Below, in pieces: positions 19,253-62,567 of a stretch of 64,000 nucleotides of DNA. Source of the DNA: Chromera velia (Eukaryota > Sar > Chromeraceae); NCBI GenBank assembly GCA_018398765.1, contig JAHBMJ010005734.1, positions 12,501 through 76,500 of the forward strand, given 5' to 3'. The translations under genes and the position numbers were made by a program. The notes beneath the pieces were generated by a model. The model ran no database searches and was not told the origin of the DNA. It saw only the letters and a list, made by a program, of their open reading frames with translations. Positions within the stretch are counted from its first letter, which is position 1. The number at the start of each line of letters is the position of its first letter.

Positions 19253-19254
19253 CG

Positions 19255-31649: not shown

Positions 31650-34600
31650 CTTCCGCTTCCTCTTCTCTTTACAAAGGGACTCTCAGTCAACCTCCGTGCC
31701 TCCCCTCTTCCCTCAGTCAATCGGTCAGACAGTCGGCACGTCGACGCAACAGAAGTCCCTATGGCAGCCCCGACGCATGAAGAAAGCTGTCCCTCTCTTC
31801 CCTTTCACCCTCTTCTGCTCTCCCCAGGAGGCCTAAGAGAAACACGAGAGGAAAAAGTCCAAGAATGCGGAACTGCTTCACACACGTCACCTGCCACTCT
31901 CACACAGAAAGCATGTAAGAAGAAAGAAAAAAAGGAAGAAAGAGAGAAAGGAAGAAAACAAGTCGGGGCACGAGTCACACAGATTGAACGAAAGGAGAGA
32001 ATGCGAACCCCCGACAGCTCTACACGGCATCGAGTTTCGCTTGCGGTCATTCCCACAGCGAGGACACCGACCAATGCTCAGCTGATCTCTGATTTTTCGG
32101 ACACGAAAGCACCTTCTCTTTCGGACATTCTGTGAAGATGTGCAGTCAGTCAATCAGTCAGTTAGATAAACAAAGAACTTCTTCCCCCCCTTCCTCCATC
32201 TTCACTTCCATACCAGTGACGCAGTAGGGGAACGCCTCTTCCTTCGGTAGGAGAATGAATTGATTGATGAGAAATCCTTCCTTCCCTTCATCCACTCCTT
32301 CTGAGAGAACCTCGTCTCTCTTTCTTTTTCTCTGCATGCCTGAAATGAGGAAGGGAAAAAGAGGGAAGGATTGAAGGAAACGGAATCGGGTGGAGGGAAA
32401 CAGACAGAGGGACGACGCCTGCGAGTAAACTCATCACACGCAGGCTCTCAGGACAAATGGAAGGGGGGGAAGAAGAAAGGGCGAGCAGACAACCGTCCAG
32501 AAGACCCGGACGATCGTCTCTCACCCCTCCCACAAGACAAGGAATGTGGAGAAGAGAAGAAAGAAGAAAGAAGTCCCTTCTTCCTCCTTTCTCTCAGTCA
32601 ATCAACCAACCAACCAATCAATCAACCAGAGCTCCCCCCTCGGCACGCACAAACAGAGACAGACAGTCGGACTACCGGGACGAACCCAGAACGCCTTACT
32701 GAAAGCATCCACCTGCGCAGACGTGCCGCACCGGTCAAAGACAGAGAGAGACGAACCCAGTTCAGTGAAACCAGTCACGGACAGCGAAGACTACCCGCAG
32801 CGCAAGGCTCCTCTGCGACTCCAGAGAGAGAAGGGAAGGGTCGCATGCGATGCTGTTCGCAAAGGGCCGAGGCCAGAGTGCGACGTCATTCCTTCCTTCC
32901 TTCCATCAGAGGACCGACGGAAGCGAAGAAACGAGAACTGTCGACACGGAAGGCCACTCTCACATGACATGCAGAGACAGAGACGGATAGGTGGGTATAC
33001 AAAGACAGATTGCTACTCTTCCTTGCTTCGTGAACACAACAACCCGCACTCTCTCTTTCTTTTTTTTTTTTTCTTTTTCATCTCTTTGAGCAAGAAAAAA
33101 TTGAAGTGGCACAGAGCTCATGAAGATCTACGCACGCCTCAGCCTTTTCCTACGGAGGCGATGACTCGACACGCCCCCTCCCACACGTCGATGCATTCTT
33201 CTTCTCTGCGTGCCTGCCTGCTTTTTCTGCTGCTTTCCGATGCGGGTGAAAGAGAAAACGACTTACCACCGGATTTGCCAGCCTTCCCCCCTGCCGTTCC
33301 GTTCCCAGAACCCCTCCGCGAGAGTGAAGAGGAAAGAAGGAACATGAAAGGAAATTAAGGGAAGCAGACAGATCTGTCGGAGAACCAGAGAGCACCCCCC
33401 CCCACCCGCAGCAGCACCAGCAACGCAGCATACAGGCACCCGCACTGACCCCACCCAGAAAGGGGGAGGTCAAGCGAGTGAGGCAGAGAGACGAGACGAG
33501 ACTAAACGAGGCCGCCCTGTCTCCTGCCAGCCGCCACGCACACTTTCTGCTGCTCTCACATGACCAAATGAAGAAAGTGCACACACACACACACACACGC
33601 TTACACACAAAGAGAGAAAAAGGGGACAGGCTAATCGAAAGAGGGACCAGAGCTGACTGTTCTCGTTTCTTTGAGACAGCCAGAAAGAAAGAAGGGACAG
33701 GACTCAGAGGAATGACAGACAGACAGACGAACATGGTCCGTCTGATCATCACCCCACCCCACCCCACCCCGTCTTACCTGGAGTCAAAAAGGACAGCCCT
33801 GCTCCCTCACTTCTGACAAACACAACCCCCCAGAGACCCACCCCCCGGCACGCACCCCTAAGCAGCAGAGACGAGGAAAATAATGCAGGAGGCAAAAGGG
33901 AAAAACAAACGAAATGGATGCCGTCCTGCCCGGAAGGACAAGACGTCAAGGCAAGCGAGGAGGGAAAAGAAAAGGACAGTTGAGAGGGAACAGCGGACAG
34001 GGAAGAAAAAAGGGTCTCTCTCACATTGACAAAGAAGAAATCCTGCATGCCTCTCCGTCTCTGCTCCATCATGTCACCAATCCGTCGATCGATCGGTTGA
34101 GGCCATTGTGCTGTCTTCCCGCATTCCATCCATGCGCCTCCGTCCGTCCGTCGGTTGACGGACAAGACAGCAGCGGAACCGGGTGCACCACCACGGCCAC
34201 TCCCACACACACACAGAAGAAAGGAAACAGATCAGACAACGACCGAAGTGGAAGTGAAAAGATGTCAAGAACAAGAAAAAAGATCAGGTCACGCGAAAGC
34301 GAACAGTCCCAGTGAGCAGCGCTCAAAGGGATTGATCGCCAGTCGCTCAAAGGTATGCGAACAGGACAAGCATAAAATACCGAGGCGTTTTATGCGCTGT
34401 CATACGGAACATCATCATCCTCATGACGTCCGGTATGAACAGCCGGTGGAGTGGTCTTTTCCTTTCACGACCAGTGTGTACCGCTCCTTCTCTTTTTGTG
34501 ACTTTCTGTCTGTCTGTGCGTGTATCAACGGTGGCGGGAGGTCCGGGCAGGAAGAGAGAAAAGGCGAAAGAGGGAGTCTTTGTGAACTTCTGGATAGGGG

Positions 34601-35971
34601 AGTATGAAATGACGAAATGACGGACAGGAAGGCCAAAGAAGAGATGAAATTTTGAACGGCGCCCTCCTCTCCCTCTCATCTCTGAATTCTCCTACCACCC
34701 TCTCAGTCAGACCTCCACACAGGATGCGAAAGTCGAAAGAAGAAGGGAAGGAAAGCCGAGACAACAAAACAGGAGAGAAAAGACTGTGTTCAGCGATATA
34801 AGACGGGCGGAAAAACGCTTGCTGACAAGCAACACAAGCCGGGAACAGACAGGCGGAGCCTGCCCACTCTCTCTTGTCGCTATTTCAACAGGCTCAAGGG
34901 GCGAAGAACCAACGAAGAGGGGAACGCGGTCTGTCGGCTTCACTGACTGACTGATTGATTGACTGATTGACTAGATGACAACCCCTGAGAGACTCTCGCT
35001 GCCCTTCCACGCTTCTTTCATGTCCCTGCAAAAGGGAAAGGAAAGAAGGGGGAACGGACGTATACCGAAGAAGTCTCAGAGAGGAAGAGAGAGAATCCCT
35101 CGCACCACTTTTTCGCCACTCTGTGACTCAGACAGCGAGAGAAAAGGGGTGTCCCTCACTCGCACATGAACATGAAACCACCATCTAAACGCGTACTGAA
35201 AGGAAGGAAAGCAAGAGGAACGAAGGAAAGCGAAATGGAAAAGGCTACCGGCCACCGGTCCGTCTCAGACACCTGAGCCAAAAAGGCGGCCACTCAGTTG
35301 CTCAGTCAGAGGAACGCAGCCAGGCAACCTGGAGGGAGGTTCCGTTTGGAGCACAACACCCCCAGGGACCCCAACCGTTTGGTCGTAGCGTCTGCACCAT
35401 CAATAAGAGGTACAACCTAGCTGCTCAAGGAAAAGGCGCAGGACGGAAACCGTCTCACTTGTTCGGACGGAAGGGGAAAGGGCGGACAGACCTTAGATGG
35501 GGGGGGGCAGTTGCACCCGCAGGAGAAGCAGCAGCAGTAGCAGAAGAAGAAGAAGACGACCACCGACCGAGACCTTCATCCAGTCAGCGATCTAGAGACG
35601 AACAAGCGAAGGGACAGTGCAGGTCGGGTATTGCCCTTCCCTTTCTGTCCTCGCAAATTCGTCTCTCTCACATGCACACACGAAAGGGCGTAAGCGCCAC
35701 TCCACTGCTCAGGTGGAAGGAGAAGGAAAGAAGGAAGGAAGCAAGAAAGGAGCTGCCCCTTGAGCATCGAATTTTGTCTCTTTGATTTCTCAGTGGTGTT
35801 CAGACAGGAATCAAGGGAAGGGTAAAGGAAAGAAGGAGAGATGATGCATTCAAACAAAGCGGTCCCTCCCTCGACCCATTAAACCCTCAATCGAACCGAA
35901 CACCCCCTCACCGGAGAGAAGGGAAGAAGAACAAAGAGAAATTCAAAGCAACAAGGAGCACCTGAGGGCCC

Positions 35972-36010
<39 letters not shown>

Positions 36011-36260
36011 CATCCAACCGTCCACCGTCTGTGCAGAGACAGACTTGCTTGCTTGCAGGCGTCCGGACTTTCAGGGAGACAGAGTGATGCCCCCTCACAC
36101 ATGCGCATGAAAGGAAGGAAGCCCAGATGGAAAGGGGAGATAAAGAAGAAGACATCTCAAGAGAGACGCCCACCAGAACAACCTTCAAACCGAGCAGGTG
36201 ACTGAGGAGACGGCAGACGGAGAAGGAAAACAGACTCCGCCTCTCAGGGCGCATTCTATC
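31650..36260 (+). repeat. Left arm of a large inverted repeat
   Basis: The reverse complement of this 4.6-kb block recurs at 56885-61965. Anchors checked by eye run from AAAGGGACTCTCAGTCAACC near 31673 (right partner near 61905) to ACTCCGCCTCTCAGGGCGCA near 36235 (partner near 56892). Between them the order of segments is the same, identity looks like 90-95% where aligned, and indels account for the length difference. Open frames such as 32546-33358 and 35459-35785 are shared with the other arm but change frame or ending between arms. I do not call them genes. It holds a TCTG microsatellite at about 35974-36009. Confidence 0.9.
32013..32081 (+). repeat. Repeat family A copy inside the left arm
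   Basis: CGACAGCTCTACACGGCATC, then TTGCGGTCATTCC, then GACACCGACCAATGCTCAG. The partner in the right arm lies at about 61322-61440. Confidence 0.6.
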
Positions 36261-39200
36261 TTTCGCTCGCAGTTGCTTTAACCTCGCTCCGCTCCTTTCC
36301 CTTCGACTGAGAGAAAGGCAAGCGAGAACAAAAAGAAACGAAAGATGTCAAAAGGCGCAGTCTCACATTTAAAAGACGCACACAAACCATTATTTCTCTT
36401 TCAAGTCAGCCAGAAACACGTGTGCCTCCGTCTGCTTCTGCACTCCTCTTGTCCGTCCCAAAACGTTCCTCTGATGATCAGTGATTGAGGCAGCACAGTC
36501 GCCCCTATGTTTAACACGCAGCCTCTCAGACTCACAACGAGAGTTTCTTTCAAGGCTCCCCAGTGCCCCCCGGCATGTTCTCTGTCTCGATACAAAGCGC
36601 GGGCGGGCGGAATCCCTCAGGCCTCCGTCCACAAAGGCACTCACTGGGTGTGTGCTGACAGGAGGGGCGAGTTTCTGGGTCGACAGGAAAGACGAGCCAT
36701 GATGGATCCTGCAGCCACAGAGAGGGAGGAGAAGTCCAATTCTGCTTGCTGCTCGTGTTCCTGCCTCCAGATCACGCCCACGCGACAACACCGCGGCGCC
36801 GCCAACGGCACCACCAACGTCTCTGGTCCGTTGAGTATCTGATGAAGTGAAAGAAAGCAGCAAGAACTCTCACAGCCCTGTGTTGCAACCCCCTCAACGC
36901 GAAAATGAAAGAAAGACCTTGGGCATCCACCCACCCAATCACCCAAGGAAAGAACAAATCAGCGAGAAGAAAGGACAGAACATTACCCCAGAAAGGTTGG
37001 CAAAAACAGAGAAGACTTTTCCGTTCCAGGCTCGGTAAAGAAGGGCAAGAACAAAAAGACGAAAAAGAGGCAATACACAAGCAGACCTCACAGACGGACC
37101 CCGGAAAGAAGATTCCCTTCCAACAGCACTCCTTTCAAGAGTACAGCACGTCGATCCCCAGCAAAATCTGTATGGACGTACAGCAGTCCATCTCCTCGAG
37201 GCAGCGGTTGTCTCCGGAAAGGGAAGCGAGGGAGGGAGGGAGGGAGGCTCGATGAAATGCCTCCTTGCCCTCAATTCTTTTCAGACTGTGTGTGTGGGGG
37301 GGACGCGTTCCGGGAGGAGGATTGCGGAAGGCGGAAGGGGTCCTTCTGAGCAAGATCGGCTCTAGACAGACGCGAATGAAGACCTATCGTTTCCGAATTT
37401 CGCGAGGATACAAGACCTTCCGTGTGCGCTACCGAATTGCTATGTGAAGAACCGTCCTCACCTCCCTCACTCCCTCCCTCCTGCCTTGTTGTGAAAGGAG
37501 GGAGAGGCTCAGGCGCCGCCATCTGCTGGGGTCGGACTGCACACAGAGGAGACGGGGAGAGCATGAAGAGGATCTTTCTTCCTTACTCACACGTTGCAGC
37601 TTCACTGCCTGCGTGCTTCTGCGAAGTCATCATTCTTGCTGCAGTCCCACCAATCTGTCAGGCTCCTCAATGCGCGGGTCGTGACCAGAAGCATGCCTGG
37701 AAGAGAAGAAACGAAAGATTGAGGAGAGAGACGGCAAGTGGCTACTGACAGAGAACATCCAGAGATGGAGGGAGGCACAGAGCGCGGCGTCAGAGGCCAA
37801 CGTCCAGCGCTATGAGGCTCGTGCCAGAGTCCCTGGCCGATCTTGGCGGCATCGTTCCCATCTGCAAATTGTCAAAGCAGGGGCGGAGAGACGAGACGCC
37901 GGGGTTGATACGCAAAATGTCGTGGTGTCCACTTGAATCTCAGCAAGACAGCATACTTACTTGATCTGTACGGCAGCACAGAATCACGAGTGACCAACGA
38001 TTGGGTGGTGCCGAAGGGTTTCTCCTCTTCGTTCAGAGGGCTGTGTGTGTTCTCGGGTTTTACATCGTTTCTTTGGAACTCCAGAAGAAGATTCCTCCGT
38101 GCTAACCCCAATCCTCGTTACACAAAGACCCAAGTCTGTCACAGCCACATGAATTGACGCCGTCTAAGCCGAAAAAGCAGTGGTCATTGACTCCGCAAAA
38201 ACAGTGAAAAAAAAAACAAAAACATCAGACTGAGAGGAGAACGAAAACGATAGTCCCGGTCCCCATCAACTCCTGACTCCTTAGCAGGCTGCACGGAGTC
38301 CAGCCAGCTGCCACTCCGTTCCCACCACGCTTCTCCAGGTCTTTTGAAGGTCTATAGCATTCTTGCTGGCTTGCCATTGAACGAAAAACCGATCGAACAA
38401 CTGATACATAGGATCCGAGATGGATCGAGAGTTAATTGGGAGCGGACTCCGCGTTCTGCCGCCGCGGCGGGGATCGCGAGGGGGCGCCGGGAGTGCATGG
38501 GGGGGGGCCGCCTCGTGCAGGCAGGGGGGGGCCACCGCCCGGCAGTGTTTCTAGAGCAGCCTTGGTGTTGCTCGCCAGCTGGCACCGCGGCGCTGCCCAG
38601 CGGCGCTACACAGCGGCGACTTTCGCGGGCTTTTCCGACAAAATTGTATATATATATACTTTGCGACAAAGTTCTTTTTTCATGACAAAGTGCCTCCCCT
38701 TCTCCTCCAAGTTTTTTCCCCGCGGCTCTTCGGGCGCACCGCGGCGTGCGGTGCCGCTCCAGCGCGACGTTTACACACAAACACCGTGGTGTCTAGAAAC
38801 GCTACCGCCCGGCCGTGGGGAATACATAAGGGGGGGGATCTTAGTTTTCCCCATACATGCATGCATCTTTTCTTAGGTCCAGACTCAGGCATCAGGAAGT
38901 TCTGTCCCAAACCCTGGCTTCTTACTACTTCTTACATATGACTTCTTCATTTGAATCATTTTCTGGAAAATCCATGAAAATCTTAGAAAATGCTACCTTT
39001 ACTATAAGTCCTTATTCTATATTTTACTATATTTTTTTCAAAGCTTAATTTTTGCTCTAAGTGTCGCATTAAGAAAACTTAATCTTACTTAATCTGAAAC
39101 TTAATATCGTATAAAAATTTAACATCACGTTAACAACACTTTCAGCAGCTAATTTCTAACCTTCTGCAAGGAGTTGGTCCGGATGACAGGTGTATATATT

Positions 39201-39936
39201 TTTATGTCAATTTATATATAAAGTTATAATACTGTTATATTATATATATAATTACACAACTTCGTACATTAACAGATACTTGATATACTCATTCATTTAT
39301 TGACTAGTTCATTAAATTCTATCACTAGTTCCATCATCACTGCATGGTACTGGGGCATCACCTGTATCATGACCTATCATGACCAAAGGTCGAACCACGA
39401 CGCACCCGCAATTCTTCAACACGACCACACGCAGCTCTCATGCGAAATGTAAGCCAAACACTGGCAGCAAGACAGATGACGAACCACTTGGGCACATGCA
39501 TGCAAATGCATGAAAACGAAAGAAGAGAAAAAAATCTCTTTTGATCCAGCCAGCGTAAACTGCCTCACATATGAAAGAGTCTGTACGACACGACAAAGTT
39601 GGACAGGCAGCTCAATCATGTCAGTTAATGTCAGTCAGTGTCAGTCAGTTGAATGGCGTCGGCAGAGTACGAAGAACAGTATCAGTACCGAATAATAATC
39701 ACATACGGAAGAAAAGACAAGGAAGGAAAAGAACGGAAACAAAACGCTCGCATGCAGTATGCATGAAAGATCGATCGAGGATTCGGATGCATGACAGTTT
39801 GCATACAGGCCCTCTCACTTACTTCGTCTCCCTCTGAACAGCAGACCAATCAGAAGTTTGACGGCTGATCCCCGTCTTTCTTCTCTGTCCTTTTCCCCCT
39901 CACTCCAACCAATGTATGCCCCCCCCACCCTCCTGA
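36261..39936. other. Region downstream of eIF5, no assigned gene
   Basis: The stretch 36390-37560 has unrecognised open frames on both strands. A plus-strand stretch at 37689-37935, opening after a CCAG and reading LEEKKRKIEERDGKWLLTEN, looks protein-like, ends in a stop and is not recognised; it could be a terminal exon. A GC-rich island at about 38440-38830 with long G runs stands out against AT-rich DNA from 38870 to 39420. From 39600 on there are repeats of GTCAGTCAGT. The 3' end of eIF5 is expected near 39.9 kb. Confidence 0.4.
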
Positions 39937-41376
39937 TCACTCTTCCTTGTCACTTGAGGAATCTTCTTCCTCCTCCTCCTCCTCCTCCTGTTCCTCAAAC
40001 CACTGCAACAGAGGCTGCAACGCTGTAACACCTCGTCTGCGTGCGTTCTTCACAAGAACCTCCTCCGCCTCCTCTGTCTGCATCTCCACCCCAACCTCTG
40101 AAACCCCCGTCTCCATCTCTGTCTCTGCCTGGAAGAACTCCACAACTGCCGTCTCCGAGACCAGATCAGTATCATAGAGCTCTTTCACAATCAGACAGAG
40201 GGGAGAAGGACGTCGTCCCTTCTGTTCGAAGGAGGAGGGACTCTCAAGGAAGGAGAACGCCACCAGAGCCTCGAGAAGACCTCTCTCAGAGAGAGGCAAG
40301 TCGGAGTTTCCCTTCAGGAACGGCATCCGCTCCTTCACGCTCTCTGCACAGAAACGACTTGTCTCTCCACCCTCTCCCTCTCCCTCCCCGCCTCCAAACA
40401 AAGCAGAGAGAAGGATGAAGAACCGGAGACGCGCGTCGAATCCCGTGGACAGTTGGTGATTGATCAGTTTCTCAACGAACACCGCGACGGTATTCAAGGA
40501 GACCCGATCAGACGGTTGAAGAAGACTGTCGTTACACTCAGGGTTGCAAAGAGACACCCTGAGTGCTGAGACAGTCTCTTGAATCCGGGGAGAAGTGAAG
40601 GTCAAAACGTCGTGGTCGTCTTCTTCGGAGGAAGGGACCTCGATGTCCTCCTTCTTCTTCTTGGTCTGAGACTCGTGAGAAGAAACAGCCACAGACCCCG
40701 CCTTTTCTCCAGAAGAGGAAGAGGAAACAGAAGATGAGGAAGAAGACTTCTTCTTGGATTTCTTCTGCTTCTCCTTTTTCCCCTTCTTCCCTCCCTCCCC
40801 CCCCACATCTTCTCCAGACACACTCTCTACCACTTCGGGATTCTTCTTCTTGATTGATTTTGCTGCAGCCGCTTTCTGATTGGCCGCCTTCTCTGCCCGT
40901 TTCTCCTCCTTGCTCTTCTCACCCCCTACAGTGGAAAGGCGTTTCTCGGGTGGGTTCTTCTCAGCGTACCCGCAGAGCTTCAGAGCAGTGCCGGTATAGG
41001 CCTTTCCAATCAGGGGACCCTGATAACCGCACCCGTTGCAGTTTGCCCGTAAGCCCCTTCCTCTGGAACACACCTGGAGGTCCATCTCGGGACCGTCGCA
41101 TCCCGGACAGATGACGAAGATCTGAATGAACCTGTCCAGACTCTCCTTCAACTCACGAGAGCTGTGCAGACCCGCCAGGGAGTCCTCTCTCTGACTGGTC
41201 CCTCTCTCGAAGGAAAACCATTTGAGGAGGTAGAACGCAGGGCGTCTGAGGGCTTTGGCAACCTCAGCCAGGTTGACTATCCTGGTGCGTTTGCCTTCCT
41301 GCTTGACCTCCAGAGGAGGCATTCTGTAGCGGAAGTGGGGATCCCCCACCGCCTTCCCGCAGGGAATGTTTATCAT
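39937..41376 (-). CDS. EIF5: Eukaryotic translation initiation factor 5 (eIF5)
   Basis: The 479-residue protein is the GTPase-activating factor that triggers GTP hydrolysis by eIF2 on the 43S/48S preinitiation complex when the start codon is found. Residues 1-150 are the N-terminal eIF2-GAP domain. HFRYRMPPL carries Arg16, which aligns with the catalytic Arg15 of the human and yeast proteins, and a zinc-binding set follows at Cys90, Cys93, Cys113 and Cys116. NPPEK closes the domain as in other eIF5 proteins. Residues of about 150-265 form a long Lys/Ser/Glu-rich linker. The last 200 residues fit the W2 (eIF5C/MIF4G-like) domain that binds eIF2-beta and eIF1/eIF3, with VKELYDTDLV and LLQWFEEQ, and an acidic tail follows. 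It is somewhat longer than the usual 400-430 residues because of the linker. No intron interrupts it. The start is chosen because it aligns with the family N-terminus. Confidence 0.96.
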   Translation of the reverse strand: MINIPCGKAVGDPHFRYRMPPLEVKQEGKRTRIVNLAEVAKALRRPAFYLLKWFSFERGTSQREDSLAGLHSSRELKESLDRFIQIFVICPGCDGPEMDLQVCSRGRGLRANCNGCGYQGPLIGKAYTGTALKLCGYAEKNPPEKRLSTVGGEKSKEEKRAEKAANQKAAAAKSIKKKNPEVVESVSGEDVGGEGGKKGKKEKQKKSKKKSSSSSSVSSSSSGEKAGSVAVSSHESQTKKKKEDIEVPSSEEDDHDVLTFTSPRIQETVSALRVSLCNPECNDSLLQPSDRVSLNTVAVFVEKLINHQLSTGFDARLRFFILLSALFGGGEGEGEGGETSRFCAESVKERMPFLKGNSDLPLSERGLLEALVAFSFLESPSSFEQKGRRPSPLCLIVKELYDTDLVSETAVVEFFQAETEMETGVSEVGVEMQTEEAEEVLVKNARRRGVTALQPLLQWFEEQEEEEEEEEDSSSDKEE

Positions 41377-42255
41377 TGTGACGAATGGGATCAGTCAGCC
41401 CTCTCATCCAGGAGGATGCAGAGCTCTCTCTTGGTTCCTCTGACTTGTGACCCTTATCGGAGGTGCCTTTCTACCAGTATCTACATCTACCGTCTCCCCG
41501 CATGCCACACGGAAGCGTGAAGAACAGGGAAGACTAAGGAGAGAATCAGAACCAGCGCTCATGAGCTGATTTGAGCACCAGTTTGTCCGCAACGTAGTTC
41601 GAAGAGAACCGTTCTTCCGAAGAAGATGGAGTTGACGCCTTACTTGAAAGTGAATAACAACTGGCAACAGAGAGTTTTGCAACCCGGCAGATCGAAGTCT
41701 TCCAGACCGACCGAATCGCGAGGACGTTTCCACAGTTTTTCAGCAGAATGCTTGCATGGTCTGAGACGTGAAATGTTTGACTCAGGGAATCCTTGTCGTC
41801 GTGCACTTCCTTTTTGACTGCTAGCTGTAGACGGGGTATGCAGCATGCAGGTCTGCATGAATTCGATTGCACGGTGTGGGCTAGCCGAATAATCGGTTTC
41901 GGGAGGGAGCGACCTGAGCGCTGACGCACGCATGCAAGCGTGCGAATGGCTCGCGGAAAGTAAAAAAGAGTCATCACCTCATCCGATAAGCCTAAGTGCC
42001 TCCCCATTTTTGGTTTTCCGGGGCCACCTACCGTTATCGAACCCAAACCCTGCATGCGCGTGCAACAGAGGTACCTTTGCAACAACAACGTTCATACGAA
42101 CTGATCAACCTGTTTTGGATGTAAATAATTCAACACAACGTGCACCTTCACACTCTACGTTAACCAGTCTCCTACAAGAACAAGATCCTACGTGTCCTTT
42201 TCCACCTCACTTGGTCTTCTGCCACAACTTCCGATAGCACAAGCGCAGCGCAACG
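41377..42255. other. Intergenic region upstream of eIF5
   Basis: A minus-strand frame of 180 codons (41546-42088) lies upstream of eIF5. It is Ser/Arg/Leu-rich with no recognised feature, and may be leader sequence or chance. Promoters for eIF5 (leftward) and possibly for the small plus-strand frame at 42256 should lie in this interval, but no clear motif is seen. Confidence 0.4.
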
Positions 42256-43932: not shown

Positions 43933-44054
43933 TGCGTCTGTTACCATGCTCCGTCTAGTCTGAGGTAGGAGTTTAGAGGGGGGTACTCGGTGCCTGCGTC
44001 TGTTACCATGCTCCGTCTAGTCTGAGGTAGGAGTTTAGAGGGGGGTATTTGGTG
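43933..44054. repeat. 61-bp tandem duplication over the end of the HEAT-like gene
   Basis: Two adjacent copies start TGCGTCTGTTACCATGCTCC at 43933 and 43994. The inner copy carries the last codons and stop of the 44003-46132 gene (reading YPPLNSYLRLDGAW). The outer copy repeats the same words downstream of the stop. Only about two bases differ. Confidence 0.9.
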
Positions 44055-51843: not shown

Positions 51844-53689
51844 GTACTGCAGTGCTTCTGCGGAAACGCTTTTGTTTCTTTGGTTGTACTCAATTGCTGC
51901 AAGGAGGTGAAAGGAGAGGAGAGAGAACCGCCTCTCTCTTGCGGGTTGTTTGCATTGTCGCGGTACAGTGTAGGGAGGGTGGTTGTTGAGGGAGGAGGGG
52001 ACGAGGGAGACCGTCTGTGACAGCCTCGCGTACAAAGAAAGTGTCTGTTTCCCTTTGGCTCTGTGTGTCATTGAAGTCGGCTTGTCTCCCAGTTTTGTAG
52101 CACGCATGTCACTGTTTTTCCATGCCTTGCTTGTGTGAATGCAGACCTGATGGGAGGGAAGCTTTCTGGTCGTGCTTCTGTCTGTCGGTCTGACTGGACG
52201 AGCGAGAAGGACACGGAAGGAAGAAAGAGAGGGTCTTCATTCCTCTTTGGACCGAATTCGAGTGGAAGGATGGAGGTTTGTGTCCGGATCGGAAGAGATC
52301 TGTCGAGGCCTGCATGGTCTCTGATGGGGGGGGATGGGAGGGGGGGCAAGGAGTATGGCCTGCGTGTGATGGGGACGCGGCCGTTTCCGATATTCGGGAG
52401 GGCCAGTCATCCATCCAACAAGGCTTCCAACTTCTTTCTCTTTCTCGCAGCTCTGTTGGGATCTTTTCTTCTTTCTCGCTTTTGTGTGTGACTGGGCGCC
52501 CGTCTCTGCTGTCGCATTCTCTCCTCGCCTCTCGTCGCCTGCCTGCCGCCTCTTTCTGTTTCTGTCGGGAAAGGAAAGAATGGGAAGGGGACGAAAGGAC
52601 GGGGATGGGGGAGGACAAAGAGAGAGAATGAATGCCCTGGGAGGGAGGGAGGAACTCATTCCATTCCATCATCACTTGGTGGATTGAGGCTCTCTCTCTC
52701 TCTATCGACCTGCCTGCTGGTCTCTGCATGGATTTTTTTCTATCTGCCGTCTGAGAGATCGAGCTGAAAGAGAGGAGTGTCTGTATCTGTGAAAGCGAAG
52801 CGCCTTCTCTTTTTGCCTGCACTTGCTTCTCTCGGGCAGACGGTTCTTCACTTCTTCCAGAGAGTGTGAGAGGAGAGGGAGATGATGCGTACTTTCCCTT
52901 CCCTTGTTTGTCTGTCTGTCTATCTCTGCTCTGTCTCTTTGTTCCCTTGCGGTCCTATCTGCGGGCCCAGGGAGGAAGAAGGAGTATTGGAGAGGTGTGG
53001 TGCCCCCGTTCGAGGGGATTCATCTGGCTGCGTTGTATCCCTCTTGCTTGTGTGCTCTTCTTCATTCCTGCCTCTGAGTGTGTGGGAGGAGAGGAAGAAG
53101 TGTGTCAATGGGGAGGGGGGATGAGCGGGCAGTGGGTCTCTCGATTTCTTTTTCTTCTCTTCTCTTCTCTTCTCTTCTCCATGCTACTGCCTTGTGCAGC
53201 AAGCTTTTTGAGACGGTCAGAGGGTCCGTCTTTTTTCGTTTTTGTGTGTGTGAGTGGTCCCCTCTCCGCCCTCCTTGCTGTCTGGCAGGACTGGCCGGCC
53301 TGTGAGAAGGAGCAAGTGCATGAGAGGGGACCTCGGGTCTTTCTTTGCATGCTCTCTCTTCTCTTGTCTGATCTCTCTTTTCCGATTCTCTGTGGCATCT
53401 GAACGGAGACCGTTGAAGAGAGGGGGAAGAGAAAAGAATGAGATAGATGCAGGGACTCCTCCTGATTTTCGAATCAGCAATGCAGATGTACAGGCAGGCA
53501 GGCAGGCAGGCAGGCAGGGAACCAAAGAAGAAGAAAGGATATCTGACAGGCATGCAGATCCTTCTGTGTCCTTCTTTGCGTCTCGTCTTGTTGTGATCTC
53601 AGCTAGAGAAACAAAACCGAAGGAAGAGGAAGTGTATGTGTCAGGCTGGCTGGCTTCCGAGTAAAAAAAATCCGGTAGATCAAAGGAAC
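51844..53689. other. T-rich DNA without a recognised gene
   Basis: Pyrimidine-rich on the plus strand, with many biased frames on both strands. TTCTC words repeat at 53155-53180, and a GGCA microsatellite lies at about 53492-53519. TGTGAGAGG near 52864 and TGTGAGAAGG near 53301 belong to the phased motif class. Confidence 0.5.
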
Positions 53690-55034
53690 AAAAGGGGGGG
53701 AGGAGATGAAGAGTTGGGGTGCTTCGTTTGTCCTTTTGAAGAGATGAAAGAATTAATGATGGATGAATGAACACGGAGACGAGGGGAGAGTGGAAGGAAG
53801 TGGGGGTATTGCCGTGAGAGAAGATCTTTCCTTTCCTTTCCCCCCAATTCCTGCTGTCTTCCTGTCTCTGGATGGCACTGTGAGAAGGAGGAGCAAACGC
53901 AAAAAGGTGAAGGAGGGAGGCGCAGATTATGCAGAGACCGTCTCTGATCGTTTGACAGAGATGCCGCCGCACTGGTGTGTTTGGAAGAGGCAAAGCAACG
54001 GGGCAGGCAGAGAAAGTAACGAGTGAAACCTGGCCCTGATGCGTTGCCTTTCCTTGCCTTGCCGTGGAGTCGCTTCTGTCTGTGTTTTCCCTCTCTGTTG
54101 AACGTTTAGCTCCACACTTACTTACTTGCCGTGATCATGTGTGAGAGCCCGTAAAGCAGCAATCGGAATTGATTTGCGGGTGATGAGGTCAGGGTCGCGT
54201 GTGTGCCTAGCTGTCTGTCAGTCAGTGAGTGAATGCGGCGCCGCGTCCTTGAAAGCAGCTGCGTGGTCAGCAGAAGGGCATAAGAAAATTGTGAGCACGG
54301 ACGTCGTCGTGATCTTTAGAAGCACTCGTTCTTATTATTTGAAGGAGAGCAAGCAAGAGCACCAGTCTTCTCTGATAGATAGAGCAATCGGCGATGCACA
54401 TTTCTAGACTCGAATTAATTGAGAGAGGAGGCAGAGAGAGACTGAATGCACAGAGAGAGAGAGAGAGAGAAATCCGGGGGAACAAGAGGGAGGGAAACCC
54501 TCTCTGGACAGACCCCCTGTGTGATCTGATCTCCTTGCATGGAAGGCTGTTTCTGCTTTTTCTTTTTTTTCTTTCATGCGCATCTGTGAGAAAAGTAGAG
54601 GAGACAATTCAGAGGGAAGGGTTGTCTCCTCAAGCCCCCCCCGTTCCCATTGCTGTAAAAGAAGGGGGGGAAGCGTCATCTCGGAAGGAGAAGCGAGAGC
54701 GACGACGGACGCACACGTGTGCACAAGAGTTTCTCATTCCTTCTTTTCGCTTTCTCGGTTTGTTACAATCAATCTCAGCTTAGCCTAGACTTACAGAAAC
54801 GAAGAAGGACGAGGAAATGCATACGTCGGACTGTCTGTCTGGCCCGCTCGCCCCGACGTCTTCCTCTCGTGTTTCTCCCGTTCAACTCGCCTGTGTCCAC
54901 CGCCTCTTCTGTCAGTTGTCTTGAGGTCTCTCTGTGCAGTGATTCTTTTCGATCGGCTGCCCTGGACCGTTGAGCGATACAAGACAAGAAAACAAAAGAA
55001 TTGAGGAGTGTGGAAAGAAATGAACGGTAGATTG
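53690..55034 (+). repeat. 1.35-kb tandem repeat, unit 1
   Basis: Offset by 1348 bases from unit 2. From 53760 to about 54590 the two units differ at only about five positions, while the outer parts are clearly more diverged. Frames such as MNEHGDEGRVEGSGG at 53763-54026 are present in both units because of the DNA identity. No recognised product is encoded. Confidence 0.9.
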
Positions 55035-56394
55035 AAGAACTACAGGGGAGGAGACGGGGGATTCGGGCGCTTCGTTCGTCCTTTTGTAGAGATGGAAGAA
55101 TTAATGATGGATGAATGAACACGGAGACGAGGGGAGAGTGGAAGGAAGTGGGGGTATTGCCGTGAGAGAAGATCTTTCCTTTCCTTTCCCCCCAATTCCT
55201 GCTGTCTTCCTGTCTCTGGATGGCACTGTGAGAAGGAGGAGCAAACGCAAAAAGGTGAAAGAGGGAGGCGCAGATTATGCAGAGACCGTCTCTGATCGTT
55301 TGACAGAGATGCCGCCGCACTGGTGTGTTTGGAAGAGGCAAAGCAACGGGGCAGGAAGAGAAAGTAACGAGTGAAACCTGGCCCTGATGCGTTGCCTTTC
55401 CTTGCCTTGCCGTGGAGTCGCTTCTGTCTGTGTTTTCCCTCTCTGTTGAACGTTTAGCTCCACACTTACTTACTTGCCGTGATCATGTGTGAGAGCCCGT
55501 AAAGCAGCAATCGGAATTGATTTGCGGGTGATGAGGTCAGGGTCGCGTGTGTGCCTAGCTGTCTGTCAGTCAGTGAGTGAATGCGGCGCCGCGTCCTTGA
55601 AAGCAGCTGCGTGGTCAGCAGAAGGGCATAAGAAAATTGTGAGCACGGACATCGTCGTGATCTTTAGAAGCACTCGTTCTTATTATTTGAAGGAGAGCAA
55701 GCAAGAGCACCAGTCTTCTCTGATAGATAGAGCAATCGGCGATGCACATTTCTAGACTCGAATTAATTGAGAGGGGAGGCAGAGAGAGACTGAATGCACA
55801 GGGAGAGAGAGAGAGAGAAATCCGGGGGAACAAGAGGGAGGGAAACCCTCTCTGGACAGACCCCCTGTGTGATCTGATCTCCTTGCATGGAAGGCTGTTT
55901 CTGCTTTTTCTTTTTTTTCTTTCATGCGCATCTGTGAGAAAAGTGGAGGAGACAAGAAAACGAAAAGCGTTGTTTCCTCAAGCGCCCCCCTCCCATAGGT
56001 GTGAGTGAGAGGGGGGAGGCGTCATCTCGGAAGGACAAGCGAGAGCGACGGCACACGCACGTGCATGCACAAGATTTTACCATTCCTTTGTTTAGATTTC
56101 TCGTTTCGTTGTCATCCCATCTTAGCCTAGACTCAGAGAAACGAAGGGGGAAAGGGAAGCGCATGCGTCTGTCTTGTCTGTCTGTCTGGCCCGCTCGCCC
56201 CGACGTCTTCCTCTCGTGTTTCTCCCGTTCAACTCGCCTGTTTCTACCGCCTCTTCTGTCTGTTGTCTTGAGCTCCCTTTGTTCCTGCAGAGTGATTCTT
56301 TCTATTCGATCGACTGCCTTGGACCGGTGAGGGATGGAAGACAAGACAAGAACAGAAAAGAATTGAGGAGTGTGGAAAGAAATGAACGTCAGAC
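55035..56394 (+). repeat. 1.35-kb tandem repeat, unit 2
   Basis: The near-identical core is at 55108-55938. After that, unit 2 resembles unit 1 only in patches (for example GGCCCGCTCGCCCCGACGTC near 54842 and 56190). Confidence 0.9.
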
Positions 56395-56884
56395 AGATCG
56401 AGGAACAAAAGGGGGGAAGACGAGGGGTTCGGGTGCTTCGTTCGTCATTTGTCTTTGAAGAGATGGAAGGATTAATATGGATGAATGGACACGGAGACGA
56501 GGGGAGAGTGGAAGGAAGTGGGGGTAATGCCGTCAGAGAAGAGATTTCCTTTTCTTTCCCCCCGAATTCTACTGTCTGCCTGTCTCTGGATGGCCCTGTG
56601 AGAAGGAGGAGCAACCAAATACAGTCAGCTGGATTGTTTCCTTTCACGCGGAGGATGAACAAGAGGGCACGGAGAAGTGCAGGAGGAGATAGAGGTAGCC
56701 AGGGAAGTGGCTGCTCTTTCTGGCTGACTTCACTGGGAAAGAAGTCTTTTTCTTGTATTTTCTAATATGTGAGACTGGGCGTTTTCGTGCCTTTCGTTTC
56801 TTTTTGTTTTTCCTTGTCTTTGTTTTTTGGTCAACTGTTCACCGAAGAGCAAAAAAGTGAGGAAAGACGAACAGAGAGTGAGAG
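56395..56884 (+). repeat. 1.35-kb tandem repeat, partial third unit and spacer
   Basis: The first 220 bases (GTGCTTCGTTCGTC, then GGATGAATGGACACGGAGAC) follow the start of units 1 and 2 with more changes. Similarity ends near 56615, and 270 bases of T-rich DNA lead to the right inverted arm. Confidence 0.75.
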
Positions 56885-59800
56885 ATAAAATGCGCCCTGA
56901 GACTTTGCCTTGTGGCGGAGTCTGTTTTCCTTCTTCGTCTGCCGTCTCCTCAGTCATCTGCTCGGTTTGAAGGGGATTGTTGTGGAAAGCGTCTCTCTTG
57001 AGATGTCTTCTTCTTTATCTCCCTTTTCCATCTGGGCTTCCTTTCATGCTCATGCGCATGTGTGAGGGGGCATCCCTCTGTCTCCCTGAAAGTCCGGACG
57101 CCTGCAAGCAAGCAAGTCTGTCTCTGCATAGACAGTGGACGGTTGGATGGACAGACAGACAGACAGACAGACGGGCCCTCAGGTGCTCCTTGTTGCTTCG
57201 AATTTTGTTTTGTCCTTCTTTCCTTCTCTCCGGTGAGGGGGTGTTCGGTTCGGTTGAGGGTTGAGTGGGTTGAGGGAGGGACCGCTTTGTTTGAATGCAT
57301 CATCTCTCCTTCTTTCCTTTACCATTCCCTTGATTCCTGTCTGAACACCACTGAGAAACCAAAGAGACAAAATTCGATGCTCAAGGGGCAGCTCCTTTCT
57401 TGCTTCCTTCCTTCTTTCCTTCTCCTTCCACCTGAGCAGTGGAGTGGCGCTTACGCCCGTTCGTGTGTGCATGTGAGAGAGACGAATTTGCGAGGACAGA
57501 AAGGGAAGGGCAATACCCGACCTGCACTGTCCCTTCGCTTGTTCGTCTCTAGATCGCTGACTGGATGAAGGTCTCGGTCGGTGGTCGTCTTCTTCTTCTT
57601 CTGCTACTGCTGCTGCTTCTCCTGCGGGTGCAACTGCCCCCCCCCATCTAAGGTCTGTCCGCCCTTTCCCCTTCCGTCCGAACAAGTGAGACGGTTTCCG
57701 TCCTGCGCCTTTTCCTTGAGCAGCTAGGTTGTACCTCTTATTGATGGTGCAGACGCTACGACCAAACGGTTGGGGTCCCTGGGGGTGTTGTGCTCCAAAC
57801 GGAACCTCCCTCCAGGTTGCCTGGCTGCGTTCCTCTGACTGAGCAACTGAGTGGCCGCCTTTTTGGCTCAGGTGTCTGAGACTGACTGGTGCCCGGTTGC
57901 GTTTCCGTTCTTTTTCCTTCATTCCTCTCCCCGTGCCTCTTTCTTGCATGCGTGTGGCCGTCTGTCTCCAACTTCCTTTCCTGCCTCTTCGTGAGCGCTC
58001 AGGGAGGGAGGGAGGGAGGCAGGGGGGTGCACTCGTGTAGCGAGGGGCTTTTCCGTCTCTTTTGATTGCATGTGCGAGTGAGGAGGCCTCCCTTTTCTCC
58101 CTCCTGCTCTCGGGGAAGGGAAGAAGTGGGTGGGGCCTCTCTCTCCCTCTCTGACGTGAGACTCTGTCGGTTCCTCCTCGTTTCCTCTCCCTTTTGCGGG
58201 GACATGAAAGAAGCGCGGAAGGGCAGAGAGAGTCTCTGGGGGGTTGTCATCTAGTCAATCAATCAGTCAGTCAGTCAGTGAAGCCGACAGACCGCGTCCC
58301 CCTCTTCGTTCCAGACAACAAACAAGTGTGATGGCAGCCGAAGCCAGCCGAGGAGAGAGGGGAGGAATCATTTTTTGCATACTTCTCGATTCCTTCGTCT
58401 TTTCTTCGATGGTTCTTCGCCCCTTGAGCCTGTTGAAATAGCGACAAGAGAGAATGGGCAGGCTCCACCTGTCTCTTTCCGGCTTGTGTTGCTTGTCAGC
58501 AAGCGTTTTTCCGCCCGTGTTATATCGTTGAACACAGTCTTTTCTCTCCTGTTTTGTTGTCTCGGCTTTCCTTCCTTTCTTTCCTTTTTGGCCTTTGTAT
58601 ACCTTGTGAAGGTCTGGCTGTCTGAGAGGGTGGTAGGAGAATTCAGAGATGAGAGGGAGAGGAGGGCGCCGTCCAAAATTTCGTCTCTTCTTTGGCCTTC
58701 CTGTCCGTCATTTCGTCATTTCATACTCCCCCATCCAGAAGTTCACAAAGACTCCCTCGCTCTTTCGCCTTCTCTCTCTTCCTGCCCGGACCTCCCGCCA
58801 CCGTTGATACACGCACGGACAGACAGAAAGTCACAGACAGAGAGGGAGCGGTACACACAGGTCGTGAAAGGAAAAGACCACTCCAACGGCTGTCCATACC
58901 GGACGTTGTCAGGATGATGATGTCCCGTATGACAGCGCATAAAACGCCTCGGTATTTTATGCTTGTCCTGTTCGCATACCTTTGAGCGACCGGCGATCAA
59001 TCCCTTTGAGCGGTGCTCACTGGGATTGTCGCTTTCGCGTGACCTGATCTTTTTTCTTGTTCTTGACATCTTTTCACTTCCACTTCGGTCGTTGTCTGAT
59101 CTGTTTTCTTTCTTGTCTGTGTGTGTGTGGGAGTGGCCGTGGTGGTGCACCCGGTTCCGCTGCTGTCCTGTCCGTCAACCGACGGACGGACGGAGGCGCA
59201 TGGATGGAATGCGGGAAGACAGTACAGCGGCCTCAACCGATCGACCGTCAGATTGGTGAGATGATGCAGAGAGAGGGACAGCCATGCAGAATTTCTTTTC
59301 CCTTTTTTGTCAATGTGAGAGAGACCCTCTTTTCTTCGCTGTCCGGCGACCCCTTCCCCTCAACTTTCCTTCTCGTCTCTCTGACTTTCCCCTCTGTTCT
59401 TCCACCAAACTTAACTGTGTTGTCGGCATGCGTCTCTTCACCCTTTCCCCTGTTTCTCCTTTCCCCTCCTGGATCCTTTTCCGCATCTTTTCCGATCAGG
59501 GGCGCATGCAGGTGGGTGGGTGGGTCTTTGGGGGGGTGCGTGTCTGTCTGGAGTGAGGGAGCGGGGCTGTCCGTTTTGACTCCAGGTAAGACGGGGTGGG
59601 GTGGGGTGGGGTGATGATCAGACGGACCATGTTCGTCTGTCTGTCTGTCATTCCTCTGAGTCCTCTCCCTTCTTTCTTTCTGGCTGTCTCAAAGAAGGAA
59701 GAACAGGCAGCTCTGAGCCCTCTTTCTTTCGATTAGCCCGCCCCCTTTCTCTCTCTTTGTATGTGTAAGCGTGTGTGTGTGTGCACTTTCTTCATTTGGT

Positions 59801-61321
59801 CATGTGAGAGCAGCAGAAAGTGTGCGTGGCGGCTGGCAGGAGACAGGGCGGCCTCGTTTAGTCTCGTCTCGTCTCTCTGCCTCACTCGCTTGACCTCCCC
59901 CTTTCTGGGTGGGGTCAGTGCGAGTGCCTGTATGCTGCGTTGCTGGTGCTGCTGCGGGTGGGGGGGGTGCTCTCTGGTTCTCCGACAGATCTGTCTGCTC
60001 TCCTTAATTTCCCTTTCCTTTCATGTTCCTTCTTTCCTCTTCACTCTCGCGGAGGGGTTCTGGGAACGGAACGGCAAGGGAGAAGGCTGGGAGTAGTAAG
60101 ATGAGTCGTTTCCTCTTTCACCCTCATCGGAAAGCAGCAGAAAAAGCAGGCAGGCACGCAGAGAAGAAGAATGCATCATCGACGTGTGGGAGGGGGCGTG
60201 TCGAGTCATCGCCTCCGTAGGAAAAGGCTGAGGCGTGCGTAGATCTTCGTGAGCTCTGTGCCACTTCAATTTTTTCTTGCTCAAAGACATGAAAAAGAAA
60301 AAAAAAAAAAGAAAGAGAGAGTGCGGGTTGTTGTGTTCAGGAAGCAAGGAAGAGTAGCAATCTGTCTTTGTATACCCACCTATCCGTCTCTGTCTCTGCA
60401 TGTCATGTGAGAGTGGCCTTCCGTGTCGACAGTTCTCGTTTCTTCGCTTCCGTCGGTCCTCTGATGGAAGGAAGGAAGGAATGACGTCGCACTCTGGCCT
60501 CGGCCCTTTGCGAACAGCATCGCATGCGACTCTTCCCTTCTCTCTCTGGAGTCGCAGAGGAGCCTTGCGCTTTGGGTAGTCTTCGCTGTCCGTGACTGGT
60601 TTCACTGAACTGGGCTCGTCTCTCTCTGTCTTTGACCGGTGCGGCACGTCTGCGCAGGTGGATGCTTTCAGTAAGGCGTTCTGGGTTCGTCCCGGTAGTC
60701 CGACTGTCTGTCTCTGTTTGTGCGTGCCGAGGGGGGAGCTCTGGTTGATTGATTGGTTGGTTGGTTGATTGACTGAGAGAAAGGAGGAAGAAGGGACTTC
60801 TTTCTTCTTTCTTCTCTTCTCCACATTCCTTGTCTTGTGGGAGGGGTGAGAGACGATCGTCCGGGTCTTCTGGACGGTTGTCTGCTCGCCCTTTCTTCTT
60901 CCCCCTCTTCCGTTTTTCCTGAGAGCCTGCATGTGTTGAGTTTACTCGCAGGCGTCGTCCCTCTGTCTGTTTCCCTCCACCCCATTCCGTTTCCTTCAAT
61001 CCTTCCCTCTTTTACCATTCCTCATTTCAGGCATGCAGAGAAAAAGAAAGAGAGACGAGGTTCTCTCAGAAGGAGTGGATGAAGGGAAGGAAGGAAGGAT
61101 CTCTCATCAATCAATCAATTCATTCTCCTACCGAAGGAAGAGGCGTCCACCCGACTTCATGAAGACTGCGCTGGGGGAGAGGGGGGAGGAGTTTTTTTTT
61201 ATGTCTGACTGATTGACTGACTGACTCATTGCACATCTTCGGGGTTTCTTTGCGACTGGAGCCTCACAGAATGTCCGAAAGAGAAAGTGCGTTCTTTCTT
61301 GTGCGAACAATCAGAGAGAGG

Positions 61322-61440
61322 CAACTTGAGCATGTCGGTTGGTGTCCGTATGTCACAACCGCTCCTCCCTCCATCTTTTCAAGTTGGAGTGATGGGAGAT
61401 GGGGGGTGCATGCGAATGACTGAGTGCAATTGTCTTTACC
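61322..61440 (-). repeat. Repeat family A copy inside the right arm
   Basis: Read on the plus strand: TTGAGCATGTCGGTTGGTGT, then TGCATGCGAATGACTGAGTG. This is the reverse orientation of the left-side copies, and its two boxes are further apart. Confidence 0.6.
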
Positions 61441-61664
61441 TACCTTCGTTCTGCCGCATCATCGCTCACTGCCTTAGATTAGAAAAAAGGTCGACGGCAT
61501 TGAGACGGTGTTAGCGGATCTTGCCTTCCTTTTCTCCTCTCCCCTCCTGTTACTCCAGGAGGTGGGGGTCTCAATCCGCCTTCGTTTCTTGTTTTGATTC
61601 TTCGTTCGCAGTCTCTAGGAACATTCAATTCGCTCTCTTGCTTTCTTCCTTTCTTTCTTTTTTC

Positions 61665-61830
61665 TTACACGGTTTCTTTGTGAGAGTGGCGGCTGACGCG
61701 AACAGAGCAGTTCCTCTCCTCACTCTCGACTCCCTCTGCCTTGTTTCTCTTAGGTCTCCTGGGGAGAACAGAGGAGGATGTTGGGGGGGGGAGGGACAGC
61801 TTTCATACTGCGTCAGAGCTGCCATAGGGA
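61665..61830 (+). repeat. Direct repeat with the window's right end, copy 1
   Basis: GGTTTCTTTGTGAGAGTGGC then GGCTGACGCGAACAGAGCAG, and further on GAGGGACAGCTTT. The same order recurs at 63855-64000. It also matches the left arm near 31760-31920 in reverse. Confidence 0.8.
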
Positions 61831-62567
61831 CTTCTGTTGCGTCGACGTGCCGTCTGTCTGACCGATTGATTGAGGGAAGAGGGGAGGCACGGAGGCTGAC
61901 TGAGGGTCCCTTCGTAGAAAAGAGAAGAGGAAGAGGAGACGGCAGAGGAATTCAGCAGGAAGAGGAGCTGCGTGAGACGCGAGTGAAGTCGCTGGAGCAT
62001 TCTTTGCAAAGAAAAATAAGCAGAATCCTGCGATCGTTACATTGCATCTACTCGTCTTTTTTGCTTTCATCGGTGTGAGAGCAGCGGCCCCGTCCGGCGG
62101 CTACTGTTGTGGAGGAGGCGTTTGTCCTTTGGTTTCTCCCATCCTTCGCTTCTTCCTTTTCCCTTTGTCTCGTTACCCGAAGTGGACTGAAAGCGAGGGA
62201 GAGAAAGAGCGACAAAAAGAAACATTGGGGGCGTACCTTCTCTCTCTGCATTCCCTCTGAGGGAATCACTAGAAGACTACCACCACCACTACCATTACTG
62301 CCCCTTCAGTCTTGCAGGTTGATCGAAAGAAGAGGAAAAGAACACTCAACCCCCAGACAAAAGTTGCGTGAAGAACGACTGAATGCGAAAAGATCCCTGG
62401 ACTTCTACCAGAGCAAGAAGGGACTCATGAGTGGAAGATCACTTTTTCAAAGCGTTGTGCAGAATGACCAGAAGACCAAAAGCACTATTTACTACCCTTT
62501 TCTCAGTCGTGATGCATGGTCCCAAGACCTACTACTCAGAGCTCACAAAAACCTCAATACGCCACTG

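Follow-up and report, generated by a model that had tools for sequence, protein, structure and literature searches.

RESULTS

The window analysed, a stretch of 64,000 nucleotides of nuclear DNA of Chromera velia, contains two large inverted arms on either side of a spacer with genes. As to lineage, the genome gave 58 chlorophyll-binding matches and 11 alveolin-like IMCp matches, the latter not wholly specific because the control also hit once, in Caulobacter; PF14733 carried no information, its controls being silent as well. Coordinates above 64000 continue the window numbering into the same contig.

26697..36416, minus strand: left arm (the initial annotation had the portion from 31650); array sense is the minus strand
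36417..56716, no strand: spacer, about 20.3 kb between the arms
39937..41376, minus strand: eIF5-like gene, single open frame, 479 aa (PF01873, E 1.1e-21; PF02020, E 3.6e-8)
44003..46132, minus strand: 709-aa ORF without Pfam family; top coding score of the contig
53673..56614, plus strand: tandem duplication adjoining the right arm (53673-55244 versus 55025-56614, 90.7%)
56717..64000, and on to about 72620 outside the window, plus strand: right arm; array sense is the plus strand

Comparison of the window with itself by BLASTN gave inverted pairs at 32062-34918/58403-61347 (89.5% over 2974 columns, E = 0), 35214-36416/56717-57928 (89.4%, E = 0), 34911-35168/58069-58310 (79%) and 31652-31947/61634-61937 (82%). 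The arms extended further through 28835-29969/69642-70777 (86.7%), 31485-31910/68749-69169 (83.6%), 27012-27199/72319-72513 (84%) and 26697-26801/72509-72620 (79%). The inverted arms of the initial annotation were thereby confirmed, and the full collinear blocks, at 26.7-36.4 kb and 56.7-72.6 kb with the right one running past the window end, are larger than had been claimed. The surrounding region had also been described as mirror-like. The AT skew of the plus strand indeed flips between the sides: A predominates at about 21.5-37.5 kb and T at about 49.5-53.5 kb and again at 57.5-75.5 kb, with a skew near zero at 53.5-55.5 kb, and this flip tracks the array orientation. The mirror is inexact, because tandem duplications at 61.6-68.2 kb add about 7 kb to the right arm.

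The mean identity of the arms was about 88%, with values per 100 columns of about 48% to 100%, and many substitutions and indels were present throughout, in keeping with the earlier description of arms that differ by many small changes. The longest arm-to-arm identical run was 423 bp (35262-35684); in 2000 simulations that spread the differences evenly, no run exceeded 116 bp. Conserved structure correlated weakly with arm identity (rho -0.15, p 0.18), and gene conversion and selection could not be separated as sources of the identical patches. The only run of N longer than 1 base in the window lies at 26533-26559, with none from 26560 to the right arm, so that the sequence is continuous across the spacer.

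Among the best 40 of 72 candidates scored in a whole-genome search, a 2.9-kb core was complete only in the two arms; elsewhere these candidates comprised a 236-bp match on contig C84 and many matches of less than 100 bp. With 26700-31650 as the query an additional 0.7-kb match was obtained on C84, and the matches on that contig combine into a single 1.4-kb partial copy of 30942-32298 (84.6%). The many similar copies of a dispersed repeat family (transposon) were not found among the best candidates scored, and on this basis the 2.9-kb core is not a pair of members of such a family. The arms form a large inverted duplication that is genuine, locus-specific and diverged. Nothing found here points to the inversion, amplification or DNA hairpin formation that had been proposed for them.

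The arms showed almost no coding signal, with scores of up to about 16 on the antisense strand only; the spacer genes scored 85 and 137. At E 0.1, no Pfam family was found in the three sense frames of 25.0-37.5, 49-64 and 64-74 kb, in the three antisense frames of 27-37 kb, or in the antisense ORFs 53217-53993 and 60021-60932 searched on the right-arm side; the same procedure detected a gag domain as a positive control. One antisense ORF of about 300 codons is present in both arms (32429-33358/60021-60941) and is 97.6% alike over 250 aa. It looks coding-like because its 12 substitutions fall 1, 3 and 8 at codon positions 1, 2 and 3. Its ends are frame-shifted, it has no Pfam family, and the left copy lacks the first ATG of the right copy.

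Neither Rfam at curated thresholds nor an ARAGORN tRNA scan gave a match. The best sub-threshold Rfam match was MIR6462 (39.8 bits versus 96, E 4.1e-4), located on a purine-rich tandem repeat, and the models ranked by E-value were mostly miRNA and lncRNA models far under their own cut-offs.

In each block the repeated modules form an array of a single sense, which is the minus strand in the left block and the plus strand in the right. The repeat matches listed numbered 143 in the same sense and 0 in the opposite sense, each pair being listed from both sides; control ratios on this contig were 30:1, 18:8 and 64:0. Tandem arrays commonly have their repeats in one sense. The content of the arms, same-sense arrays of a hairpin-RNA-like family, had been overlooked in the initial annotation. 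The commonest module, the F1 hairpin, consists of a conserved basal stem and internal loop with a variable tip that mostly still folds. F1 copies and two further stable hairpins were located as follows.

21853..21994, minus strand: F1 hairpin outside the arm, same array, 32.3 bits
24454..24544, minus strand: F1 hairpin outside the arm, same array, 68.1 bits
25721..25853, minus strand: F1 hairpin outside the arm, same array, 57.7 bits
26214..26313, minus strand: F1 hairpin outside the arm, same array, 70.0 bits
27010..27089, minus strand: F1 hairpin, 58.7 bits; collinear partner 72424-72515
27557..27662, minus strand: F1 hairpin, 77.7 bits, E 5e-25
28734..28815, minus strand: weaker F1 hairpin, 27.4 bits; tip folds no better than shuffles (z +1.46)
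29456..29532, minus strand: weaker F1 hairpin, 25.4 bits; collinear partner 70077-70147
30570..30693, minus strand: F1 hairpin, 59.5 bits
32029..32089, minus strand: F1 hairpin in the initially annotated left arm, 29.9 bits, E 4.8e-8; collinear with 61318-61437, tip much shorter
32450..32569, minus strand: non-F1 hairpin of high stability (z -7.4), left arm; the plus-strand counterpart, near 60800-60919, has z -5.0
35550..35669, minus strand: very stable non-F1 hairpin in the 423-bp identical patch, z -7.4; counterpart near 57450-57569, plus strand, z -3.6
61318..61437, plus strand: F1 hairpin in the initially annotated right arm, 60.2 bits, E 8.1e-19
63032..63109, plus strand: F1 hairpin, 42.7 bits

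The F1 covariance model accepted 37 copies from six sources at E up to 1e-4, the lowest at 23.4 bits: 26 on this contig, 7 and 3 on two further contigs and 1 within the stray 1.4-kb partial copy on C84. The strand was consistent within each of the three clusters, and hardly anything beyond the F1 base could be aligned between them. Model hits spanned 61-142 nt, 2 of the 37 being 65 nt or shorter; these are hit spans and not mapped RNA ends. Outside the three F1 contigs, matches to the F1 motif were at control level (19 versus 19; 3 versus 1), and therefore F1 is no dispersed mobile family. A 19-base F1 pattern occurred at 38 places in viral contigs. These were rejected as members and read as chance, because the F1 model gave them at most 18.6 bits (E 0.0012, for sites that the pattern itself had selected), below all 37 accepted copies. 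The same search outside this genome with a stricter pattern gave no match.

Covariation was measured in an unfitted alignment of 19 copies and in the 37 model-fitted copies, with shuffle tests that are inflated by the relatedness of the copies. The 19 copies had 28 double-change cells versus 14.6 ± 3.3 in shuffles (0/500) and a score of 0.306 versus 0.229 ± 0.020 shuffled and 0.057-0.131 slid; the 37 copies had 63 cells versus 19.6 ± 4.2 and a score of 0.342 versus 0.217 ± 0.013. Two of the five measures for the 19 copies were not above shuffles, the pairs with a double change (8 versus 7.5, 254/500) and the further pair types (30 versus 28.0, 127/500). A proposed outer GAGA/TCTC helix was paired in only 50% of cells.

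With two columns excluded, the stems held 38 G-U and 3 A-C on the T-rich strand in the 19 copies, and 64 and 6 in the 37. Shuffles gave 10.1 ± 1.9 and 24.5 ± 3.0 A-C, respectively; G-U was also under the shuffled level, though less so (38 versus 42.5; 64 versus 78.6). Strand-biased mutation could be an added source of G-U. Sense windows folded better than antisense windows on the left (n = 115, p = 0.0001) and on the right (n = 181, p = 0.0002), while central control windows showed no such difference (n = 79, p = 0.63). As judged from the sequences, the predicted F1 pairing fits an RNA of the T-rich strand.

In the 34 of 36 copies tested, F1 tips folded better than shuffles (mean z -1.83, with 23 of 34 below -1), and antisense tips did likewise (mean z -1.14). 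A second hairpin beside F1 was visible in several copies; with sequence-only anchors it was not significant (139 of 189 cells in 21 of 36 copies, 386/5000 shuffles). Thirteen pairs of copies gave no consistent result on whether tips change faster than flanks. In the arm pairs 27010/72424, 29456/70077 and 32029/61318 the upstream flank was clearly better conserved than the tip, which was not the case in 73140/73669, 66077/67507 and 12961/14868 of contig C405; the downstream flank had often diverged as much as the tip.

DISCUSSION

The arms probably stem from an old and since diverged inverted segmental duplication of an array in which non-coding, structured-RNA modules all point one way. F1 is best read as a clustered, undescribed candidate family of structured RNAs, which appears to be preserved by selection. 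In each array transcription would run away from the gene island and yield a U-rich precursor, from which hairpin units of some 60-140 nt may be cut, possibly including a second hairpin. A protein would recognise the conserved F1 base, leaving the tip free to vary. The inversion would supply a second, divergently oriented array of same-sense RNAs, and with it more dosage and room for tandem expansion. From the long identical patches it seems that the arms later exchanged sequence by gene conversion, unless assembly produced the patches.

The arms could instead belong, as introns or untranslated parts, to a divergent pair of paralogous protein genes with small exons, or the antisense ORF could be a real gene, with hairpins that are incidental or related to splicing. 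The sense strand is strongly T-rich in the manner of introns, some F1 tips start with G-Y-G-T-C and finish with CAG as introns might, and the ORF is conserved between the arms with its third-position bias. However, the coding scores of the arms stay far below those of the spacer genes, no Pfam family was found in the frames searched, many tips lack a terminal AG, F1 lengths are out of frame (modulo 3: 21, 10 and 5 of 36), and the stems covary; this explanation is unlikely. Less likely again are DNA elements, that is, a complex satellite, a protein-binding DNA motif or tandem mobile elements, in which the hairpins act as DNA. CENP-B boxes are a protein-binding DNA motif within satellites, DNA-binding sites typically stand out as a conserved motif amid units that otherwise diverge, and the right arm shows tandem growth. 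DNA would not need G-U kept and A-C avoided on one strand, or strand-asymmetric folding, however, and the motif is at control level outside the three contigs.

That an assembly error produced the inverted arrangement or the identical patches is very improbable. A 423-bp identical run is long for arms averaging 88%, and gap filling could partly account for such patches; a published Chromera velia assembly was built from short reads with scaffolding and gap filling (PMC4501334). Against this, the arms differ throughout by substitutions and indels, and the window's single run of N longer than 1 base lies outside both arms and the spacer. Least probable of all is double-stranded hairpin RNA for RNA silencing, which large inverted repeats can yield when one transcript crosses both arms. 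Here 20 kb of spacer with genes intervenes, and the inferred sense strands of the arms are the same and not complementary; because both arms are read in the same sense, the inversion alone gives no double-stranded RNA.

For the structured-RNA arrays preferred here, several known systems offer comparisons. Sex-chromosome palindromes have large inverted arms, a spacer and arm-to-arm gene conversion, with near-identity patches in older divergence. The present arms share this layout and such patches, but they have about 88% identity and RNA-like modules without a recognised protein gene, and conversion is inferred. Box H/ACA snoRNAs resemble F1 in having a hairpin, a hinge, a possible second hairpin and paralogue clusters. 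Their H box, ANANNA, occurred in none of 36 F1 hinges, a weak contrast given the about 5% expected by shuffling; moreover, their internal loop is variable and that of F1 conserved, and the second F1 hairpin was not significant. Dictyostelid class I RNAs are small-RNA families of 42-65 nt, intergenic and often clustered, with an upstream DUSE promoter element, a conserved covarying stem, a conserved 11-nt motif adjoining the 5' stem (T, C, C, A and A at 3, 6, 9, 10 and 11) and a variable interior (PMC7919456). F1 likewise has a short covarying stem, a conserved motif beside it, a variable interior and clustering. The 11-nt motif was found in only 2 of 36 F1 copies when the 32 nt that follow the basal stem were searched, model hits of F1 mostly exceed the class I length, the internal-loop motif is two-sided, and the host is an alga and not a social amoeba. 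F1 is a candidate family nearest in design to the dictyostelid class I RNAs and not a member of them.

More speculatively, the locus may hold a repertoire of dozens of small RNAs with one shared recognition base and differing tips. In this view tandem and inverted duplication enlarged the set, in three clusters, in an algal relative of malaria parasites, and the RNAs would serve as effectors or guides that vary. The F1 covariance model is ready for use on transcripts and relatives, and the locus offers a testable case in which an inverted duplication places arrays of the same RNA in divergent orientation. A similar RNA design in a photosynthetic alveolate, outside Rfam, would suggest that families of this kind have originated repeatedly and are missed by annotation.

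Extent and uniqueness of the inverted duplication

The initial annotation had proposed an inverted duplication with arms at 31650-36260 and 56885-61965. The window corresponds to C3806:12501-76500. The duplication at 31.65-61.97 kb proved to be real, and it was larger still when the rest of contig C3806 was included. In window numbering continued into the contig, the full collinear duplication comprises 26.7-36.4 kb on the left and 56.7-72.6 kb on the right, and the right arm contains about 7 kb of additional tandem duplications at 61.6-68.2 kb.

A 2.9-kb core was searched against the whole genome (177.8 Mb, 4040 contigs), which two family searches suggest to be that of a photosynthetic alveolate, probably a chromerid. 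Among the best 40 of 72 candidates scored, complete copies were present only at the two arm sites, the third-best match was 236 bp on another contig, C84, and the remaining matches were shorter than 100 bp. With 26700-31650 as the query, a further 0.7 kb was matched on C84, and in a contig-to-contig comparison the C84 matches merged into a single 1.4-kb copy of 30942-32298 with 84.6% identity. This stray left-arm copy is located at positions 7457-8846 of excerpt L032 (C84:47457-48846) and carries one hairpin of the F1 family described below.

The identity between the arms, determined per 100 columns, ranged from about 48% to 100%. The longest identical run was 423 bp, compared with a maximum of 116 bp across 2000 simulations. 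This mosaic suggests later exchange between the arms, but gap filling during assembly could imitate it.

The F1 hairpin family

Folding scans revealed very stable hairpins, two of them in the left arm at z -7.4. By inspection, a recurrent frame, F1, was recognized, in which GGAGCATKTCGGTTGGYGTC is followed by a variable tip and GRATGACCGNNTGCGAATCTCTGG. A covariance model was built on 19 copies, and 37 copies were accepted at E <=1e-4 in six sources. The counts for contigs C405 and C2965 are lower bounds, as 10 kb of each was covered.

F1 copies (covariance model) and other features of C3806, in continued window numbering
21.9-32.1 kb, minus: 10 of the 26 F1 copies on C3806
61.3-75.1 kb, plus: the other 16 F1 copies
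C84 copy: 1 F1
C405, all plus: at least 7 F1
C2965, all minus: at least 3 F1
23201, 23658, 24189 and 26779, minus: second repeated module, made up of a pyrimidine tract, a core rich in CATG, CATGTGAGAGAGGGTGGGTGAG and a small hairpin
64535, 71455 and 72531, plus: second repeated module
12138-19717: LTR-retrotransposon-like element with direct repeats 12138-12609 and 19257-19717 (95.6%); between them, on the minus strand, gag domain PF03732 (E 1.3e-9)
40450-40620, minus: strong hairpin (z -6.5) within the eIF5-like coding sequence
43933-44056: 62-bp unit present twice in tandem (96.8%), where the 709-aa ORF has its 3' end
47049-48031: tandem repeat rich in G, with a 68-bp unit by TRF and a GC skew reaching +0.44, between gene island and right array

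The arms as initially delimited contain one F1 each, at corresponding positions (32029-32089 and 61318-61437). The F1 5' motif pattern had 45 matches in the whole genome (19 on C3806, 5 on C405, 2 on C2965 and 19 elsewhere, compared with 19 for a backward control), and the 3' motif pattern had 18 (12, 1, 2 and 3, respectively, the last compared with 1 for the control). Across clusters, BLASTN aligned only about 25-50 bp at the 3' base of F1, plus a few short unrelated repeats. A second hairpin past the hinge was seen in several copies and was not significant with sequence-only anchors. The exact core pattern of the second module gave three matches, on C3806 only.

Evidence for RNA structure

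In the stems of the unfitted 19-copy alignment, 28 double-change cells were present, compared with 14.6 +/- 3.3 after shuffling (0/500), a test that is inflated by related copies, as are all shuffle tests on F1. The covariation score was 0.306 (shuffled, 0.229 +/- 0.020; slid, 0.057-0.131). Neither the number of pairs with a double change (254/500) nor that of further pair types (127/500) exceeded shuffling, and a proposed outer GAGA/TCTC helix was paired in just 50% of cells. The 37 copies, in an alignment fitted to the model and hence biased towards it, had 63 double-change cells (shuffled, 19.6 +/- 4.2) and a covariation score of 0.342 (shuffled, 0.217 +/- 0.013; slid, <=0.093).

On the T-rich strand, with columns 17 and 23 excluded, the 19-copy stems contained 38 G-U and 3 A-C, where shuffling predicts 42.5 and 10.1; for the 37 copies the counts were 64 and 6, with 78.6 and 24.5 predicted. 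A-C was reduced far more than G-U, which is needed by an RNA of the T-rich strand and not by DNA, although strand-biased mutation could account for part of the G-U excess. Sense windows folded better than antisense windows in both arrays (left, n=115, p=0.0001; right, n=181, p=0.0002); the central gene region showed no such difference (n=79, p=0.63). The F1 tips vary in sequence and still folded better than shuffles in the 34 of 36 copies that were long enough (mean z -1.83, 23 below -1; antisense strand, mean z -1.14).

Orientation of the arrays

For the comparison of repeats, each array was read along its T-rich strand (20-37.5 kb, minus; 49.5-76.5 kb, plus). The 143 matches listed for these arrays were all in the same sense, with none in the opposite sense, every pair being counted from both sides. 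The corresponding ratios in control stretches of this contig were 30:1, 18:8 and 64:0, which makes same-sense repeats inside one array unremarkable; the notable feature is the flip between the left and right arrays. The 10-mer CATGTGAGAG occurred 17 times in array sense and never in the opposite sense.

Coding content of the arms

A coding score for which three long ORFs served as the training set was 85 and 137 for the spacer genes and almost nil across the arms. The sole arm signal, about 16, came from an antisense segment pair (32477-32938 and 60432-60893). The ORF containing these segments is 97.6% alike between the arms over 250 aa, and its 12 substitutions fall 1, 3 and 8 at codon positions 1, 2 and 3, six silent and six not. 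This pattern is coding-like and counts against a purely non-coding arm. Weighing the other way, the ORF copies share no common first ATG, their frame differs at the ORF end, and the ORF matched no Pfam family. A procedure that detected the retrotransposon gag domain at 12-20 kb likewise found no family, whether in sense frames (25-37.5, 49-64 and 64-74 kb) or in antisense frames (27-37 kb).

Comparison with known RNAs and proposed mechanism

No Rfam family was matched at curated thresholds. Dictyostelid class I RNAs (PMC7919456) are nearest to F1 in design, but their class I motif is missing from 34 of 36 F1 copies; none of the 36 has an H box as in H/ACA RNAs. Titles and abstract openings of literature on Chromera non-coding RNA, small RNA/snoRNA and long noncoding RNA, and on tandem hairpin RNAs, contained no F1-like family.

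We infer transcription, RNA ends and binding as follows. The arrays would be transcribed outward from the gene island as U-rich precursors, from which the hairpin units would be processed out and bound at their conserved base. Given inverted arms with like sense strands, the same RNAs would arise from the two halves of the duplication, which would mean dosage and diversification and not double-stranded RNA.
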